Part shown: positions 2,746-45,992 of the stretch, piece by piece
How positions within the stretch are numbered: the stretch's first letter is position 1
How the letters are laid out: each line of letters opens with the position of its first letter
Source of the DNA: an uncultured Pseudoflavonifractor sp.
GTDB taxonomy: Bacteria; Bacillota; Clostridia; Oscillospirales; Oscillospiraceae
NCBI GenBank assembly: GCA_947577065.1
Contig: CANPTT010000010.1
Location: forward strand, 1 to 59,573
Length of the DNA: 59,573 nt
Reading direction: 5' to 3'
The notes under the pieces: generated by a model
Databases searched by the model: none
What the model was told of the DNA's origin: nothing
What the model saw: the letters and a program-made list of their open reading frames with translations, nothing else
Translations under genes and position numbers: made by a program

Positions 2746-3405
2746 ATGCTTCAGATTGGAGCTTGGGTAGCTTATCGGAAAGATAATTTTACATATGACC
2801 CCAAAACAGACAAACCTTATTTTAAGACAAAGACGGAGGCAATTGAGACTGTCGCCGCAAATAGTTTAGACCCGTGTAAAACGCCCAAGGCTGAACGGGT
2901 AAGCCGAGGGAAGTATCTTTATCGTCCCAAAGACGTTGGGAATCTGGTTTTCTTTTCTGATAGGGAATATGTTATAGAGAGGGTCACCGCAGAGAACATG
3001 CAAATGATTGAAGAACTGATGAGAGAGTTTCTGGGAGAAGAAGAGAGTGAGGAGTCGGCATATCTCAAATCGTTCCTGTCTCAGAAGGAACTATTCTCCG
3101 CCATCGATAAGATTTCCTTTTCATGTGCGGAAGATTTCAAGACTCTTTTAGTCACACACGAAAGAGTGGCAGAGGGATATCTTCTTTGCGTTGACATCAT
3201 AACGAAGTCTGCCCGTTGTGGGGGGCGTGTGGTTGTGGGGACAGTTCCGCATCAGCTTGGTCAGTCGGACAAGGAAACTTTTTTAAGGTTGAAGAAGCAC
3301 GCGACTGCCGTAACACAAATGCTGCGGTCTTGGTATCCAGAGGTAAGGAAGGATATTTCTCGGCGCTATCAACCCAAAAAGGCTGCGGGAGCTGGCACTG
3401 TATAA
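2746..3405 (+). CDS. Hypothetical protein (219 aa)
   Basis: Starts at ATG 2746, 19 bases after ung, with GAAGGTGA as a ribosome-binding site. The island box overlaps the ung stop codon just upstream. The product is charged and lysine-rich. The N-terminal 70 residues (AWVAYRKDNFTYDPKTDKPYF) look like a compact beta domain. A Glu-rich linker at about 85-105 follows, and the C-terminal half ends in a basic helix and tail (SRRYQPKKAAGAG). No signal peptide, membrane segment or recognisable family. It is probably cotranscribed with ung, so a DNA-associated role is possible but unproven. Confidence 0.7.
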   Translation: MLQIGAWVAYRKDNFTYDPKTDKPYFKTKTEAIETVAANSLDPCKTPKAERVSRGKYLYRPKDVGNLVFFSDREYVIERVTAENMQMIEELMREFLGEEESEESAYLKSFLSQKELFSAIDKISFSCAEDFKTLLVTHERVAEGYLLCVDIITKSARCGGRVVVGTVPHQLGQSDKETFLRLKKHATAVTQMLRSWYPEVRKDISRRYQPKKAAGAGTV

Positions 3406-3473
3406 GGCATGCATGAACCAAAAGCTGTCCATATAGGAAGTTCGCCTCATATAGAAAACAGGGGAGAGGTATT

Positions 3474-3752
3474 TTGTTTACATTCCAGCATACAGAGACT
3501 GTTAAATTCCCATCCACGAGCATTCCGGTGCATTTCGTGTATGATAGCGCTTCGGAACTGCTTTGGCTCGAAGTATCCCTCGCGGCCTGTCAGGCCAATA
3601 AGATTGATACCGATGGCGACGCATATCATCAGACGGTGGAGATGTGCGCACAATGGGGTCAACATAGCTGCGGCTCCCAAATGGCAGCGAATCGTATTAT
3701 TCAACGCGACTTCCCGAAGCTGAGCAAAGGTGGCGCCATATTCTATGGTTGA
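3474..3752 (+). CDS. Small hypothetical protein (92 aa), TTG start
   Basis: The likely start is TTG 3474, preceded by GGGGAGAGG at 3461-3469 and by the island box at 3445-3459. The product begins FTFQHTETVKFPSTSIPVHF, which suggests paired beta strands, and has two cysteines. No family is recognised. A rho-independent terminator follows 20 bases after the stop, supporting the rightward gene over the antisense frame at 3447-3836, which has no good ribosome-binding site. Confidence 0.55.
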   Translation: MFTFQHTETVKFPSTSIPVHFVYDSASELLWLEVSLAACQANKIDTDGDAYHQTVEMCAQWGQHSCGSQMAANRIIQRDFPKLSKGGAIFYG

Positions 3753-3772
3753 CGATGCTATATAACAAAAAG

Positions 3773-3825: not shown

Positions 3826-4425
3826 TCACTCTTCATCGCTTGATGAGTTCATAATTACTGGCATAATTGGGCTAAACCTACGCGGGTCCACTTCAAGTGC
3901 TGCACAAACCGCGAGACCAATACGCATGCTGGTTGCATAGAGACTTTGCTCCCCAGACTCCAAGCGCTGGTACTGGCGAAGCGTGATTCCTGCCCTGTCG
4001 GCAACTTGTTGTTGAGATAAACCCAGAGCTTTCCTTTGGTTTTGCAAAATCTGATTCGCTCTCTCTATATTTACGAACCCCCACTCGGCAAACGGGCTGG
4101 CTGGCTTTGATGGTTCATAGTCATCATCGTATTTGGGATGGATTAGACCTATTATTGTTAAGAAGAATCGTTGTTCTTTTAATTCAAGTACATCACAGAT
4201 TGCAATACTGGTGTTTATGCTGGCATTTTGTAATTTGCGCTCGCCAGACTCGAATTGCTGATATTTATACAGGGGGATGTTAGCCATCTCAGCCACTTCT
4301 AATTGAGATAAACTTAGTTCCTCTCTTCGGCTCTGGAGGGCTTTGCCATCTGTGTTCATGAATATGGAAGCCATCACTTTTAAGTCGTAGTTCTCTTGCT
4401 GGTTTTCCATTTCGCCGTTTCCCAT
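3826..4425 (-). CDS. Transcriptional regulator with two XRE helix-turn-helix domains
   Basis: A DNA-binding protein of 199 aa with two Cro/C1-type HTH_3 domains in tandem. The first is at about residues 28-85 (LQSRREELSLSQLEVAEMAN...KYQQFESGERKL) and the second at about 122-180 (LQNQRKALGLSQQQVADRAG...RQYQRLESGEQSL). The two copies are clearly related to each other, which implies internal duplication and possibly binding to a two-part operator. ATG 4425 has an ideal GGAGG upstream and a promoter at 4462-4490. It faces the repeat-filled region 4630-6000, so the repeats or the TATATAG boxes are natural candidate targets. That link is inference. Confidence 0.88.
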   Translation of the reverse strand: MGNGEMENQQENYDLKVMASIFMNTDGKALQSRREELSLSQLEVAEMANIPLYKYQQFESGERKLQNASINTSIAICDVLELKEQRFFLTIIGLIHPKYDDDYEPSKPASPFAEWGFVNIERANQILQNQRKALGLSQQQVADRAGITLRQYQRLESGEQSLYATSMRIGLAVCAALEVDPRRFSPIMPVIMNSSSDEE

Positions 4426-4461
4426 GAAAACATTCCTCCTGCTTTTTCTTTTGATATAGTT

Positions 4462-4490
4462 ATATTACGCTCCTTTCACTATAAAGTCAA
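4462..4490 (-). promoter_or_regulatory. Promoter of the double-XRE regulator
   Basis: Read leftward: TTGACT (4490-4485), a 17-base spacer, TAATAT (4467-4462). The leader to the ATG at 4425 is about 30 bases. Confidence 0.65.
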
Positions 4491-4629
4491 CGAGACGCTC
4501 ATGTGTGATTTTGTAAGTGCGTAGTAAAACATAGTGTGTGACTTGGTATATGAAGCGTGTATAGGATTTAAGTTATATGTGAAAATATCAGCTTATATAG
4601 AAAAGCGTCACCTCATATATGAAAAATAA

Positions 4630-5420
4630 GATAGACTTCGAGCGGGTGTGCCCGCTTATGATTTTGTGACGGCGCGCAGACTGTCACGGGATGTGATAGT
4701 CTTTTAGACGAAGAATGACTGCGGGCATACATTGACTTCGGTACAAGGATTGACTATGTCCCGCCGCTTTGTGCCATAGTTGCCCCTTGGGCGGGACGTA
4801 GATAGATAGCGGGCAAGGACTGACTGCGGATGCCGATGACAGACTGCGATGCGATGACCGACATAGCCCCGCTGTATTAGAAACATAGTATGCCTCCGAG
4901 CGGGGCGCAGTCTATCTGTGAGTCGAAGAGGATAGCGGCTGCACGTTGACAGTCTTTGCTTCGTTGAATACTACGGAGGCGAGATAAGCTGCGGAGCGTG
5001 AACTGACTTTGGCCCCGCAGACAATCTTCGAAGCGCTGACTGTCTGCAACCGGGTGGCGGTGTAACTACGAAACGATGACAGACTTCAAGGCGTGGATAG
5101 ACATCGGCCCATGACTGACTCCGCCCCGCTGTATCAGAGACATTGTTTACCTACGAGCGGGGCGCAGACTGATGCGGGCTATGACTGAATGCGGAGACGA
5201 TGAGTGACTGCGACTGGTGGGTGGACTGAATACGAAACGCGGACTGAATGCGGGCCTCCATGACTAACTACGAAACGATGTCGATAGCGGTGGGCAACTC
5301 AGTAGACTTCGGGATGAAGATTGAATGCGGGCGAAGAGAAACTGCGAGCGTGGACTGACATCCGGCCCGCTTTATAAGATACAATGTCAGACTGCGAGCG
5401 GGCCGTATACTGCCTCGAGA
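4630..5420. repeat. Degenerate GACT repeat region with periodic GC hairpins, non-coding
   Basis: About 790 bases without a credible gene. The tract is built from degenerate units of the type GACTGAATGCGGG, GACTGCGGA, GACTTCGGG and GACTAACTACGAAACGATG. In the clearest stretch, GACT begins at 5167, 5183, 5206, 5224, 5242 and 5262, close to 18-23 base spacing. TAACTACGAAACGATG occurs twice (about 5063 and 5264). GC-rich hairpins occur at 4641-4656, 4758-4796, 4867-4905, 5124-5162 and 5364-5404. The last three start 240-257 bases apart and share the internal pattern TAT-AGA-ACA-GT. It could be a partition site, origin component or structured RNA; I cannot decide. Confidence 0.7.
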
Positions 5421-5541
5421 ATAGAGGGGATAGCCCATTTTCAAAACTGAACACTTTTTATCAAATAACCATTATCCCAAAATCAGAACTTTTCGAAGAT
5501 ATTAGGAATCGTGAGTGGCCAGAAGTCTTAAAATTATCAAA

Positions 5542-5834
5542 ATACCCCGAAATCATAGCTGAAATATAGTCAAAATACCCCGAAATCGGGGTTTTCATTG
5601 GTTGGCGCAGGTAGGTGTTGGATGTGTGCTATCGTTGATGGAGGGCCGAAATCGTGATTTCGGGGTGTTTTGGGGTGGTTTTTGGGTGGTTTCATATATG
5701 ATTTTGGGGTGTTGCGTTTTGATACCCCGAAATCATAGTCAAATCCTATATGAAATACCCCGAAATCATGGTCAAATTCGGGGTATTGGAGTAGTGTTTT
5801 GTATAGGAGACCCCCGTGTGTGATTTCGGGGTAT
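5542..5834. repeat. Iteron-like cluster of ATACCCCGAAATCA
   Basis: A 14-mer repeats in both orientations: forward at 5542, 5575, 5722 and 5755, a half site at 5646, and inverted at 5655-5666, 5699-5710 (one mismatch), 5775-5786 (partial) and 5821-5834 (exact). The forward copies form two pairs, each exactly 33 bases apart, about three helical turns. Copies at 5722 and 5755 extend to ATAGTC and ATGGTC. CCGAAATC-G-TGATTTCGG at 5646-5663 is a near-perfect palindrome. This resembles plasmid iterons or a multi-site operator. No replication initiator gene is recognised nearby. Confidence 0.75.
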
Positions 5835-5904
5835 GAGGCCTTTTGGGGGCCATTTTTGTCACAAACCACTTTTTGCATTTTTGGGAACTTTTTTGAGAAG
5901 TGGG

Positions 5905-6000
5905 TAACAAATCTGTACTGCACAATATCTGTAACATAGCTACAGATTATGTTGTTTTAGCAACAAATCTGTATATACAAATTTTGTTGTTTTGGTAACA
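5905..6000. repeat. AT-rich region with ATCTGTA repeats and palindrome
   Basis: AACAAATCTGTA occurs at 5906-5917 and 5962-5973. ATCTGTA-N7-TACAGAT at 5927-5947 is a perfect 7-bp inverted repeat. TTGTTGTTTT...AACAAA motifs flank it. The segment is very AT-rich and lies directly downstream of the iteron-like cluster, a layout typical of an origin melting region or a complex promoter. Confidence 0.55.
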
Positions 6001-6023
6001 AAATGGTGGGTATTTTCTCTAAT

Positions 6024-6053
6024 TTGAATTAAGTGATAAAGCATTGATAGAAT
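6024..6053 (+). promoter_or_regulatory. Candidate promoter for the 6090-9444 gene run
   Basis: TTGAAT, an 18-base spacer and TAGAAT at 6048-6053. The predicted start near 6060 again coincides with an island box (CTTATATAGAATA at 6064-6076). Confidence 0.5.
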
Positions 6054-6089
6054 CGGCCATACTTCTTATATAGAATAGGAGGCATTACT

Positions 6090-6332
6090 ATGATACTTCA
6101 AATAAATGAAAAAGAAATCCCGGTTACTAAATCTAATGCCATAATTGCAAATCGGTCCGTGTCCTCTTTTTTAGAGGTGGTCCGGTCGAGTGCGTTAGAG
6201 GCAGGGAATGAAGCGCTTTTTATAACAACCTTATTGGAAATGCATAAGAAGTCCTATGCGCTTTTAGAGGAACTTGGCGTAGAAAATATCCGCTATATCA
6301 TGGAGCACTATGCTGAGCAAGTAGAAAAATAA
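6090..6332 (+). CDS. Small hypothetical protein (80 aa)
   Basis: ATG 6090 follows AGGAGG at optimal spacing. The product starts with a short beta hairpin (MILQINEKEIPVTKSN) and continues as an acidic helical segment (FLEVVRSSALEAGNEALF, then LLEMHKKSYALLEELG). No family is recognised. It is the first gene after the repeat region and may be the first in a run to 9444, although 80 bases separate it from the next gene. Confidence 0.7.
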   Translation: MILQINEKEIPVTKSNAIIANRSVSSFLEVVRSSALEAGNEALFITTLLEMHKKSYALLEELGVENIRYIMEHYAEQVEK

Positions 6333-6412: not shown

Positions 6413-7258
6413 ATGATTCAATCTGATAACAACGTTGCCATTAAGCCTAATGTGCGCCCCAGTTATTACCTCAAGGAGTACGACGACGTAATGATGGGAA
6501 ATCGCAAAACATTTTCCTCCGCCTTGATGAGTAAGGAGCAGGGGCCTGCTCTTTGCACCGAGCTCCTCAAAAGTATTTTCACGCTTTATTTGAATTGGAC
6601 GCCGGAACAGGTACGGGACCAGTTGACTCCAGAGATTGTGAAAACCATGAAGCTGTGGCCTTTGGTAAAGCGTCTACCTTGCCCTCCTGAACTCAACCCT
6701 CAGAAGGAGCTCTATTACGTCGCTTGGCATTTATATCCCCAGACGCGAAATGTAAAGGCGCCTGAGCTTATCATTAAGCTGTATACAGACCTCATGGAGG
6801 GCCGCGCAAAAAAGTTCCCCAGTGGCTACTTCGATGGCAATGACGGACATCTCCGTGCGCGAATCCTTTTTCTGACGATGGTTCGGGAGTATCTTCCGCC
6901 ATTTGATGGCATTGAGTCAATGTATGCCTTTTTCGCTGGCGTCAACGGGAAGCGCTGTATCAATCAGTATAAATTGACCATTCCGCTGAGGGAGTTGTAT
7001 GGTTCTCCTTTGGCTTATCTGCACGACGCGCTTCCTGATTGGCAGAAAGACGAAGAGCTGTATGAATACTACAATGCTATGCTTCAGAAGCCGCGCGCAT
7101 CGGATTCCCCGTTTTTGCCTGTAACGGAGGAAGAACGCATCCTTGCTTTTGGGGATAGCGCTGTTACGACCGGGCGCAGCTTTGTAGAAAACGATGGACA
7201 ATTCGAAACAGAAGTTGTAGACTTTGAAATGGAAGAGAAAGGATTGTGTCATGTCTAA
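6413..7258 (+). CDS. Hypothetical protein (281 aa)
   Basis: ATG 6413 is preceded by AGGAGG. A soluble, mostly helical protein, rich in Leu, Pro and aromatic residues (LYLNWTPEQVRDQLTPEIV; ELYYVAWHLYPQTRN; LTMVREYLPPFDGIESMYAFF). The C-terminal 50 residues look like a flexible acidic tail with many Ser/Thr, a plausible phosphorylation region. Its end overlaps the start of the PP2C phosphatase gene by eight bases, so the two are translationally coupled. A natural inference is that it is the partner or substrate of that phosphatase. No named family is assigned. Confidence 0.75.
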   Translation: MIQSDNNVAIKPNVRPSYYLKEYDDVMMGNRKTFSSALMSKEQGPALCTELLKSIFTLYLNWTPEQVRDQLTPEIVKTMKLWPLVKRLPCPPELNPQKELYYVAWHLYPQTRNVKAPELIIKLYTDLMEGRAKKFPSGYFDGNDGHLRARILFLTMVREYLPPFDGIESMYAFFAGVNGKRCINQYKLTIPLRELYGSPLAYLHDALPDWQKDEELYEYYNAMLQKPRASDSPFLPVTEEERILAFGDSAVTTGRSFVENDGQFETEVVDFEMEEKGLCHV

Positions 7259-8039
7259 TAACATTCAGAGTAAGTATTTTTATGGCGGCGTTTCTGACGT
7301 TGGCTATATGCGTGAACGCAATGAGGACTTCCTTGCTTTTGAGGTCCTTCGGGAGGATATCCTTCTTGCTGTTGTCGCGGACGGCGCTGGGAGCCGCCAG
7401 TGTGGTTTTGAAATCCAGCCTGCTGTGATTGCGGCGACTGAAATTGTGGGGGTAGTCAAGCGCTTTTTTACGTCAAATCCTGAATTTCTGGAGAAGTATC
7501 CTATCGAAGTGCTCAATGAGGCAATGGCTGTTGCCAATCGCACCATTGGGGTATTTAAGGTCGCCAACGAAGACCTATATTCCGGGTTTGGTGTATGCGC
7601 TACCTGTTGCCTCGTAATAGGGGAAAAATTTTTCTTCGCTCACTGTGGCAATACTCGGCTCTATATGGTGCGACACCTTCAAGATGACTCGGCCCGAATT
7701 TTGCAGTTGACCAATGACCATACCTTGGCAGCTCGCATGGTTAAGGATGGTACGCTCAATGCAGAAGAATACTACAGCCATCCGTCTCGCAATACTTACA
7801 CCAGCGGTCTTGGGTTTGTTGATACGCCGGAAATTCAAACGTATAGTGCCACGCTCAAAAAGGGCGATTTGTTGGCCTTGACTACAGACGGCATTCATTA
7901 TGCAATCAACCCGGAATCTATTAAGAACATCATCCTTGAAAGTGATGGTTGGGAATCTGCCGCGAACGCTCTCATTAGTGGCGCGAAAATGCGGGAGATG
8001 GTTGATAACATGACCGCGGCTATTATTTACTACCTATAA
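7251..8039 (+). CDS. PP2C-family serine/threonine protein phosphatase
   Basis: A metal-dependent protein phosphatase of 262 aa. The PP2C motifs are present in order: RERNED at about 21-26, VADGAG at 42-47 (metal-binding Asp44-Gly45), TTDG at 211-214 and DNMTAAIIY at 252-260. ATG 7251 is preferred (GAAAGGA upstream); an earlier in-frame ATG at 7224 lies inside the previous gene without a ribosome-binding site. It overlaps the 281-aa gene by eight bases. No kinase, FHA or von Willebrand domain gene is visible next to it, unlike many phosphatase-kinase pairs. The cysteine-rich CATCCLVIG strand in the core is unusual. Confidence 0.88.
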   Translation: MSNNIQSKYFYGGVSDVGYMRERNEDFLAFEVLREDILLAVVADGAGSRQCGFEIQPAVIAATEIVGVVKRFFTSNPEFLEKYPIEVLNEAMAVANRTIGVFKVANEDLYSGFGVCATCCLVIGEKFFFAHCGNTRLYMVRHLQDDSARILQLTNDHTLAARMVKDGTLNAEEYYSHPSRNTYTSGLGFVDTPEIQTYSATLKKGDLLALTTDGIHYAINPESIKNIILESDGWESAANALISGAKMREMVDNMTAAIIYYL

Positions 8040-9497: not shown

Positions 9498-9704
9498 ATG
9501 AGCAAAATTTGTAAATTTTCTGTGAATTATTGCGATATTGCTATTTTGATACCGATAGAGTATAATGAATGGGCCTATGAACTTGCAACACGAACCCAAC
9601 TAAAATTAAATATTGATTCAGGCTTAGCACAAAATACTTTAACTCCATCCCCAATAAAACATACGCGTTGTCCCATGAATTCTGGCACGAAGAAAAGAGC
9701 CTGA
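9498..9704 (+). CDS. Doubtful small ORF (68 aa)
   Basis: A possible small gene from ATG 9498, preceded only by a weak GCGGAAA. The inverted island box CTTCTATATGAGC overlaps its start. The product has no recognisable domain and its last codons run into the terminator at 9697-9740. It could be a small island gene or chance. Confidence 0.2.
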   Translation: MSKICKFSVNYCDIAILIPIEYNEWAYELATRTQLKLNIDSGLAQNTLTPSPIKHTRCPMNSGTKKRA

Positions 9705-9878: not shown

Positions 9879-9995
9879 AATATATTGGATGAGGAGAGCG
9901 ACGGCGTTCGCTGAAATGTCCCATTGCAGGCCAGAGTCCGGCTTGTGATACGGCAGCCTGAAGTTATCCACTACACAAAGACGGAGGGATCCTTT

Positions 9996-26956: not shown

Positions 26957-27026
26957 CAGACACTCCTCCTTTACCGCTATGATAACAAAACTATCCCTAT
27001 TTTATGCTGTGGAAAAAAGAATAGAA

Positions 27027-37236: not shown

Positions 37237-37398
37237 ATGTGCTGTGGGAACAACGGTTGGGGCGGCGGCTGCTGCTGGATCATTCTGATCATCATCCTGC
37301 TTCTGTGCTGCTGCGGCGGCTGGGGCGGCAACAACTGCGGTTGTAGCTGCGGCTGCAACAATGGCTGTGGCTGTGGGTGCAACGACGGCTGCTGCTAA
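37237..37398 (+). CDS. Cysteine/glycine-rich small membrane protein (53 aa)
   Basis: ATG 37237 follows GAGGTGA. The 53-residue product contains 16 cysteines (2, 3, 12, 13, 24-26, 34, 36, 38, 40, 44, 46, 48, 52, 53) and many glycines. A hydrophobic core WIILIIILLL (14-23) looks like a membrane segment and is followed by CCCGGWGGNN and a Cys-x-Cys-rich tail. A terminator follows 15 bases after the stop. No named family is certain; it recalls small spore-associated or metal-binding proteins. It lies divergent from mltG. Confidence 0.75.
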   Translation: MCCGNNGWGGGCCWIILIIILLLCCCGGWGGNNCGCSCGCNNGCGCGCNDGCC

Positions 37399-44786: not shown

Positions 44787-45920
44787 TTACTGCAGGGCTG
44801 CCGCCACTCTTGCCAGGGTGTCGGTGTGGAGCTGGTCCACTAGGTGCGTGTAGATCTTTCCTGTAGTGGATGGAGTGGAGTGACCCAAAGCCTTACCAAT
44901 GTCAAAAAGGGGCGCTCCTTGGGAGGAGGCTACGGTGGCAAAGGTGTGCCGCAGGCCATGAAGGGTCAGGGGCGGTAGGCCACTGTTGCGGATGAAACGG
45001 GTAAAATTCATGGACAGGTTATTGGGAGAAAAGGGTCGACCCTTTTTGTCCACAGCTACCATTCCGCTGTTGGGCCAGTTTGTCCCCATAGCCAGCTTTT
45101 TTTCATTCTGTCGCCGCCGTTCCTGGCGTAGAAGGTAATAAATATCATCTCCCATATAAAGGACCCGGGTGGAGGAACGATTTTTGGTTTCCTTGTCAAT
45201 AACCTTGGCCCCTGCAGCAGTACGGGCTTCCCGAATGTGTATTTTCCGCATTTGAAAATCCACACTGTCCCAACGCAGGCCGCAGATCTCCTCCCGGCGC
45301 AGTCCCAGGCTTCCGGCCAGGTGTACTACGGTTTCCAGCCAATGGCCCTCCATAAGCTGATACAGTTTTTTGAGTGTTTCCGCCGTATAGTACCGGGTCT
45401 CCTTGTAGACCACGCGGGGCGGTTCCACCCGCTCGGTGGGGCAGCGGAGGATCAGATCCTGTCGCATAGCGGCATGCAGGGCGGCGGAGAGCAGATCATG
45501 GTGCCGCCGGACCGTATTGGGACATAGATGTTTGCATTGCATCAGCTCGGCATAATAATGCTGCAGGTCCTTTGGACTCAGGTCTTGAAGAGGGATGCAG
45601 CCCAAGGCGGGGGAGAGGTGATTACGGATGATTTTTTGATATCCATAGACAGTTGTCTCCGCCCGATTGGGAATGACGACCTCTTGCATCCAGGTTTCCA
45701 GCCAGTCGTCAAGTGTCATTTTTACAGGACGAAGATGTTGGGATTGCGCCTTTTTGATCAAAAAAGTGTCTCGGGCTTTCCGTGCAGCGGAGAGGGTGGG
45801 ATGGGTTCCATACTTTCGGATGCGCTGCCCATCTTCGTCCTTTCCCAGGTCCATGTAGAGATAATATACGTGTCTTTCGGTGTCATAGGAAATGCCGCGT
45901 TCATATTTGATCCTGCTCAT
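44787..45920 (-). CDS. Tyrosine recombinase (phage-type integrase), orphan
   Basis: A 377-aa site-specific recombinase. An N-terminal arm-binding-like region (YLYMDLGKDEDGQRIRKYG) is followed by a SAM-like core-binding domain at about 65-145 and the catalytic domain. The expected catalytic residues are present: Arg in LGLRREEICGLRW, HGLRH, GHSTPSTTGKIY and the final Tyr. ATG 45920 follows GGAGA. No excisionase, relaxase or phage genes accompany it, so it is either a solitary integrase, the remnant of an element, or a domesticated recombinase. Confidence 0.93.
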   Translation of the reverse strand: MSRIKYERGISYDTERHVYYLYMDLGKDEDGQRIRKYGTHPTLSAARKARDTFLIKKAQSQHLRPVKMTLDDWLETWMQEVVIPNRAETTVYGYQKIIRNHLSPALGCIPLQDLSPKDLQHYYAELMQCKHLCPNTVRRHHDLLSAALHAAMRQDLILRCPTERVEPPRVVYKETRYYTAETLKKLYQLMEGHWLETVVHLAGSLGLRREEICGLRWDSVDFQMRKIHIREARTAAGAKVIDKETKNRSSTRVLYMGDDIYYLLRQERRRQNEKKLAMGTNWPNSGMVAVDKKGRPFSPNNLSMNFTRFIRNSGLPPLTLHGLRHTFATVASSQGAPLFDIGKALGHSTPSTTGKIYTHLVDQLHTDTLARVAAALQ

Positions 45921-45992
45921 AGTTCTCTTTCTCCTTTCTGTTCGACAGGAATCGACAGTAAAGATTATCATGTCGGGGAGAAAAGAGATAGA

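Follow-up and report, generated by a model that had tools for sequence, protein, structure and literature searches.

A phased array of degenerate direct repeats with superimposed hairpins on an accessory segment: a candidate iteron-like control region

Introduction

On pRUMAL01, a plasmid of Ruminococcus albus 7 (NC_014824.1), repeats are densest in windows starting at 241.8-246.2 kb, and the array found there (~241.9-247.9 kb) is free of annotated genes and lies directly ahead of a Rep3 replication initiation gene at 248,195. It holds 99 units of 22 bp over 6.3 kb, all of them on the same strand, with 23, 44, 88 and 22 as the commonest unit spacings. It also carries 35 hairpins; of the 34 spacings between them, 33 lie no more than 4 bp from a multiple of 22. 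A shorter array of the same units is seen at ~237.7-238.6 kb. Thirteen plasmid records carry related Rep genes, and five small ones were examined: direct repeats of 22-23 bp occur upstream of the Rep3-related gene in four of them (pRGI00460, pRGI00555, pRGI00363 and Mediterraneibacter gnavus unnamed1), and pRGF00037 has no direct-repeat array in the 503 bases examined, which are part of its upstream DNA. When three of the small-plasmid arrays were put to an unsupervised test, two beat eight shuffles and pRGI00555 did not.

Two further systems were considered. In extrachromosomal mycobacterial prophages, an RNA-based origin includes a non-coding region that is needed for maintenance and expresses an RNA beside parABS (PMC7157519). 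The large ornate RNAs of the ROOL and GOLLD classes (PMC12286853) have, as an earlier note on this DNA had suggested, a length range comparable to that of the locus studied below.

Here we describe this locus, tract A, within a window of 59,573 nucleotides (the whole stretch of DNA analysed) from an uncultured Pseudoflavonifractor. We give a probability of about one half to the reading that tract A is an iteron-like DNA control array, serving an integrated element in its replication, incompatibility or partition. The literature surveyed contains no account of tract A, a statement confined to that survey. The features are collected in Table 1.

Table 1. Coordinates of tract A, its hairpins, its surroundings and the segment that carries it.
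Feature	Position	Strand	Remarks
Visible part of accessory, probably integrated segment	1-9639		Runs off contig start
Two-stretch XRE-type protein	3826-4425		Two XRE-type helix-turn-helix stretches; Pfam HTH_3, E 7.6e-14
AT-rich left flank	4490-4625		TGTGTGAYTT / TATATGAAA repeats; motifs again at 5738 and 5807 (tract B); GC 0.345 at 4400-4599
Tract A, non-coding direct-repeat array	4630-5420	+	~29-31 degenerate units, core TGACTKCGR, period 18.4 bp
Hairpin H0, fourth and diverged copy	4758-4797		Stem GTCCCGCC/GGCGGGAC; from alignment with H1-H3
Hairpin H1	4866-4906		Stem GCCCCGCT/AGCGGGGC, 25-nt loop
Hairpin H2	5123-5163		Stem as H1, 25-nt loop
Hairpin H3	5364-5404		Stem GGCCCGCT/AGCGGGCC, 25-nt loop; 3' arm overlaps unit
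Tract B	5540-5835		Copies of ATACCCCGAAATCA, both orientations
Tract C	5941-6002		Two 27-nt copies, TTGTTNNNNNAACAAA type
80-aa protein	6090-6332	+	Weak likeness to a pRUMAL01 protein (16% identity, pairwise E 0.002)
281-aa protein	6413-7258	+	No Pfam match of its own; relatives on R. albus and B. proteoclasticus plasmids
PP2C-type phosphatase	7224-8039	+	
Assembly fork	9640-9694		55 bases identical to end of contig C4 (same assembly); probable right junction of segment

A phased direct-repeat array

The earlier note had described about 790 non-coding bases of degenerate repeat units, and both the extent and the non-coding character hold: only two open reading frames touch the tract, of 60 and 61 aa (60-aa limit), and many repeats lie at distances that three does not divide (202, 257 and 59 among them). 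Repetition is far in excess of chance, with 342 repeated 6-mer pairs (mean 117, sd 14, maximum 160 in 500 dinucleotide shuffles) and 79 repeated 8-mer pairs (shuffle maximum 27). An unsupervised motif search recovered 29 sites worth 348 bits, none of 20 shuffles exceeding 13 sites or 137 bits; a repeat run found 29 sites and 346 bits in a shifted register, and two control stretches of the window reached 92 and 60 bits against shuffle bests of their own of 142 and 81. A profile built from hand-picked units returned 31 sites. The units lie predominantly on one strand, the profile matching 31-32 times on the + strand and 7-10 times on the - strand depending on background, a bias somewhat inflated by a profile made from + strand units; several of the - strand matches coincide with hairpin arms.

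The units are also phased, in line with the unit periodicity that the earlier note had described. Seventeen of the 28 gaps between them measure 17-20 bp (mean 4.9 and maximum 13 in 5000 random placements), and the larger gaps are mostly close to multiples of the period, which is best fitted at 18.4 bp (R 0.66, p 0.001 in 1000 placements), a lattice with jitter. Within the unit, information is concentrated at positions 1-5, 7 and 8 (0.9-1.4 bits), with 0.7-0.8 bits at -6, -2 and -1 and at most 0.44 elsewhere, a profile that is partly by construction, the sites having been aligned on the core. Tandem Repeats Finder reports only 4818-4862 (2.3 copies) within the tract, because the units are too degenerate for that program. 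GC content is 0.50-0.565 inside the array, between AT-rich flanks of 0.345 on the left and 0.375 on the right.

Under the preferred reading, a single sequence-specific protein would occupy the ~30 direct sites on the 18.4-bp lattice, one copy next to another. The gene for this protein may lie in the part of the element that is missing, or the protein may be the adjoining two-domain XRE protein.

Four related hairpins

Superimposed on the units are hairpins with 8-bp stems and loops of 24-25 nt that have sequence in common. The earlier note had recognised the spacings, measured here as 257 and 241, and had overlooked the fourth hairpin, H0, about 108 bases ahead of H1. H0 scores 58.1 bits with a model of the four hairpins that by construction includes it, and all four align across 58 columns with a single gap, in the loop of H0.

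The stems are paired in 32 of 32 cells, and two of the eight pairs are changed on both sides, whereas slid stem partners pair at 31-53%. The paired percentage is attained in 12 of 500 shuffles, the covariation score likewise in 12 and the count of doubly changed pairs in 55; as the test covers four copies only, selected for being hairpins, we take stem conservation as support rather than proof. The stems are without G-U pairs, which does not separate RNA from DNA, because six of the eight pairs are invariant. Units phased far beyond what shuffles show, and stems whose pairing survives through matched changes, together support the earlier note's proposal of selected structure.

The hairpins and the lattice are connected. 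The 3' arms of H1-H3 overlap the unit starts at 4891, 5148 and 5389, so that these hairpins consist of a unit and a matching upstream arm. Hairpin spacings amount to 5.9, 14.1 and 13.2 units, and the two periodicities thus need not be independent. Under the preferred reading, the four hairpins, three of them with a repeat unit for a 3' arm, would mark or hide sites in single-stranded or extruded DNA.

Folding and transcription signals

The earlier note had offered, as one possibility, a large structured RNA comparable to ROOL or GOLLD, and this is not supported. No Rfam family reaches its gathering score in tract A, matches up to E 5 being below-threshold miRNA families at 5645-5834, outside the tract. 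The segments between hairpins show no more folding than shuffles (z +0.65, -0.80 and +1.37 on the + strand; +0.67, -1.53 and +1.62 on the - strand); the hairpins and 4630-4756 do fold better (200 shuffles in each case). Folded whole as RNA, the tract gives z -1.59 on the + strand, with two of 20 shuffles as good, and -2.49 on the - strand, with none of 20; as + strand DNA it gives -2.13 (20 shuffles).

A different kind of RNA has to be weighed. CsrB-type decoy RNAs provide a model for titration of an RNA-binding protein, and tract A could be transcribed from the + strand as a long, mostly unstructured RNA that offers ~30 GACUGCGR sites and four hairpins to such a protein. Same-strand units, their loose spacing and the common hairpin-loop sequence would suit this role, as would the shared direction of the rightward genes and a + strand GC skew that is positive in every 200-base window of the tract (AT skew -0.04 to 0.19). 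Against it stand the absence of a promoter-like site on the + strand from 4072 to 4630 and the presence of terminator-like sites inside the tract at 4640 and 4937, the first one beyond it being at 5577. The whole-tract fold scores, the lack of an Rfam match and the lack of relatives in which between-species covariation might be seen count in the same direction, and we regard a decoy RNA as unlikely.

Surrounding DNA and neighbouring genes

Tract A is part of a non-coding region from 4426 to 6089 that contains additional repeat families. In tract B, a motif search found six sites worth 107 bits (eight shuffles: at most 87 bits and at most seven sites). Set against the tract A profile, its motif attains a score that 1.3% of the 58,039 17-mers of the window also attain, a suggestive result and no more. 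The stretch 5440-5850, which includes tract B, folds beyond shuffles (z -5.0 on the + strand, -3.9 on the - strand).

To the left, the XRE gene lies on the - strand, starts at 4425 and is transcribed away from the tract; a Rep3_N match to its product (E 0.038) is below cut-off. To the right, the first likely gene starts at 6090, the genes are on the + strand, and the PP2C gene is followed by a copper-amine-oxidase-N/transglutaminase gene. PADLOC returned HTH and phosphatase matches only.

This arrangement invites the alternative that the two-domain XRE protein binds both the units and the tract B sites, making 4490-5835 an extended operator that switches two divergent transcription units. The divergent, adjoining XRE gene, the motifs common to the left flank and tract B, and the score of the tract B motif on the tract A profile are in keeping with it. 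However, ordinary XRE operators have far fewer sites than ~30 same-strand sites over 790 bp. The relatives of the XRE protein, all short or diverged matches in 20 of 149 genomes (own included), seven plasmid records, two phage records and four viral loci, point the same way: on three of the four viral contigs they are of single-domain size (88-102 aa), and a dense unit array is absent from those contigs and from the XRE-bearing loci of related genomes. We consider an operator of this kind improbable.

The carrier segment and its probable junction

Tract A lies on an accessory segment, as comparison within the genus shows. The AsnC/Lrp gene starting near 9990 is present in 14 of 16 genus genomes, own included, and its upstream DNA was compared for 11 of the 13 others, of which one contig was too short. 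At all 10 informative loci the segment is absent and a gene of the UDG superfamily lies upstream, DNA matches to the window beginning at 9975 or later; two translated matches of 29-31 residues at one of these loci look like chance. In the own genome the corresponding UDG gene is on contig C4 and ends 72 bases short of the contig end. The identity of that end with 9640-9694 is the pattern left where assembly paths meet, so the sampled population probably contains both empty and occupied sites; the fork may alternatively stem from a contig chimera. The assembly yielded no contig overlapping the left end of the window.

The segment itself bears a UDG-superfamily gene (1776-2726; family match over residues 137-287 of 316), to which only one other genus genome has a match at E 1e-20 (16 searched, own included). 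Outside the segment are a tyrosine recombinase gene (Phage_integrase, 44787-45971), perhaps a remnant of another element, a THF riboswitch (Rfam RF01831, 22150-22262) and, at 37318-37391, a 24-bp tandem repeat in three copies.

Searches for relatives

By blastn, tract A was found in its own genome only among 149 genomes (own included), where it matched itself and four chance-level stretches, and it had no match in plasmids and phages. The hairpin-loop pattern occurred in three stretches of genome contigs, all chance by reading, and in none of the viral contigs. With the hairpin model, nine of 400 family genomes gave matches at E <=0.01, own included (58-76 bits); the best of the others (L185, 30.9 bits) reads as an ordinary terminator, and the remaining seven score 21.6-24.8 bits. 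A unit-triplet pattern matched at least 120 stretches in viral contigs and is a poor probe, since it fails to match the window itself. Several dense-unit loci were rejected: L074 reads as a coding-type repeat, L133 and L073 were set aside on open-frame length only, L148 is simple-sequence DNA, and L162 reads as a homogeneous 21-bp tandem repeat. The L162 repeat, of TTGACTGCGTTAGACCTA type, lies on the reverse strand of a viral contig at about 3438-3755.

Of the outcomes that the earlier note had named as speaking against its claims, the lack of a homologous region elsewhere held in the searches made; lack of periodicity and coding evidence did not. Detection in a single genome is also in keeping with a decaying satellite, in which old tandem duplications of ~18 bp and ~250 bp drift without function, and the segments between hairpins are indeed mutually alignable above shuffles (S1 vs S2, z 4.0). 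Such drift is very unlikely in view of a phase held across 790 bp, paired stem changes in the four hairpins, and a core kept while spacers vary, the last being in part a product of the way the sites were aligned, on their cores.

As a single query, the 281-aa protein found its own genome only among 149 relatives and 391 class genomes, and a three-row profile found four of the 391, own included, the other three weakly (E 7e-6 to 7e-4). Viral contigs and phages gave no relatives, and two plasmids did, pRUMAL01 and pCY360 (28.6% and 27.7% identity; E 8e-25 and 2e-18), one of these proteins being above the DUF4046 cut-off and the other below. The pRUMAL01 relative has a PP2C gene one gene further on; the PP2C protein of the segment matched 49 plasmid records. 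Plasmids yielded no match to the proteins at 69-758 and 2746-3402, and viral contigs none to those at 2746-3405 and 1776-2723.

Interpretation

Taken against a Rep3-type iteron origin, tract A presents the one-strand direct-repeat array and, as weak evidence, an AT-rich stretch beside it. Its period is 18.4 bp instead of 22, no Rep3 domain is above cut-off in 12 segment ORFs, and the strict pattern TTWTNCACA, which we take to be the DnaA-box motif, has no exact match in the segment and two in the window, at 27008 and 31953. With period, adjacent initiator and DnaA box all differing, tract A does not qualify as a Rep3 iteron array, and it may nevertheless work like one. The left part of the segment is missing, which leaves room for a distant rep gene. 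Nor was a rep or par gene recognised when the 12 ORFs of the visible 9.6 kb were scanned with Pfam, including the parA/parB or parM/parR pair that would adjoin a plasmid partition centromere. The replication- or partition-type DNA site that the earlier note had put forward is therefore plausible from the layout parallel before the pRUMAL01 Rep3 gene, and lacks a recognised rep or par gene in the segment.

A DNA array is favoured because same-strand, phased units stand far above shuffles while the stretches between hairpins show no excess folding; because the stems stay paired, on an accessory segment with a fork at 9640; and because segment genes have relatives on pRUMAL01 and pCY360, the layout recurs before the pRUMAL01 Rep3 gene, and the flanks are AT-rich. 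It is weakened by the lack of a recognised rep or par gene, a period of 18.4 instead of 22 bp, the lack of a strict DnaA box, hairpins that differ from those of pRUMAL01, and a doubly-changed-pair count that 55 of 500 shuffles reach. The likely use of such an array would be replication or copy-number control of the element, in an iteron-like manner, with partition next. That it represents a new kind of maintenance or regulatory element, with a ~30-site 18.4-bp lattice, some units built into hairpins able to hide them, a probably mobile carrier and a counterpart of different sequence before the pRUMAL01 rep gene, is a tentative and rather doubtful proposal.

If long arrays of units and hairpins mark control regions of large plasmids and integrated elements, their layout would be enough to recognise them in the absence of shared sequence, and they would flag origins or partition sites on contigs that carry no recognised rep or par gene.

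Comparison with known systems

The non-coding stretch at 86.5-88.0 kb of the R. albus plasmid was the first-choice parallel, because it lies ~4 kb from a DUF4046-like gene; it is repeat-rich (16 sites, 181 bits versus at most 113 in shuffles). Since it falls outside the plasmid's 25 densest windows, it was given up and the array ahead of the rep gene preferred.

Compared with the ornate ROOL and GOLLD RNAs (PMC12286853), tract A is made of repeats instead of a single elaborate fold, and it has no Rfam match. The mycobacterial prophage origins lie beside parABS (PMC7157519), whereas no par gene was recognised in the segment that carries tract A. Small Rep3 plasmids share direct repeats with tract A but place them upstream of rep, which follows the array, in about 5-8 copies of 22-23 bp. 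The pRUMAL01 region ahead of the Rep3 gene differs in that it has another sequence, its unit is 22 bp in 99 copies instead of 18.4 bp in ~30, its hairpins are short palindromes instead of 8-bp stems with 24-25-nt loops, and it directly precedes an initiator gene, none being recognised beside tract A. It is nonetheless the closest layout to tract A: both are non-coding, the plasmid region by its annotation, with degenerate direct units on one strand, spacings at the unit length and its multiples, and hairpins superimposed at longer intervals, and pRUMAL01 also carries relatives of the 281-aa and PP2C proteins of the window.
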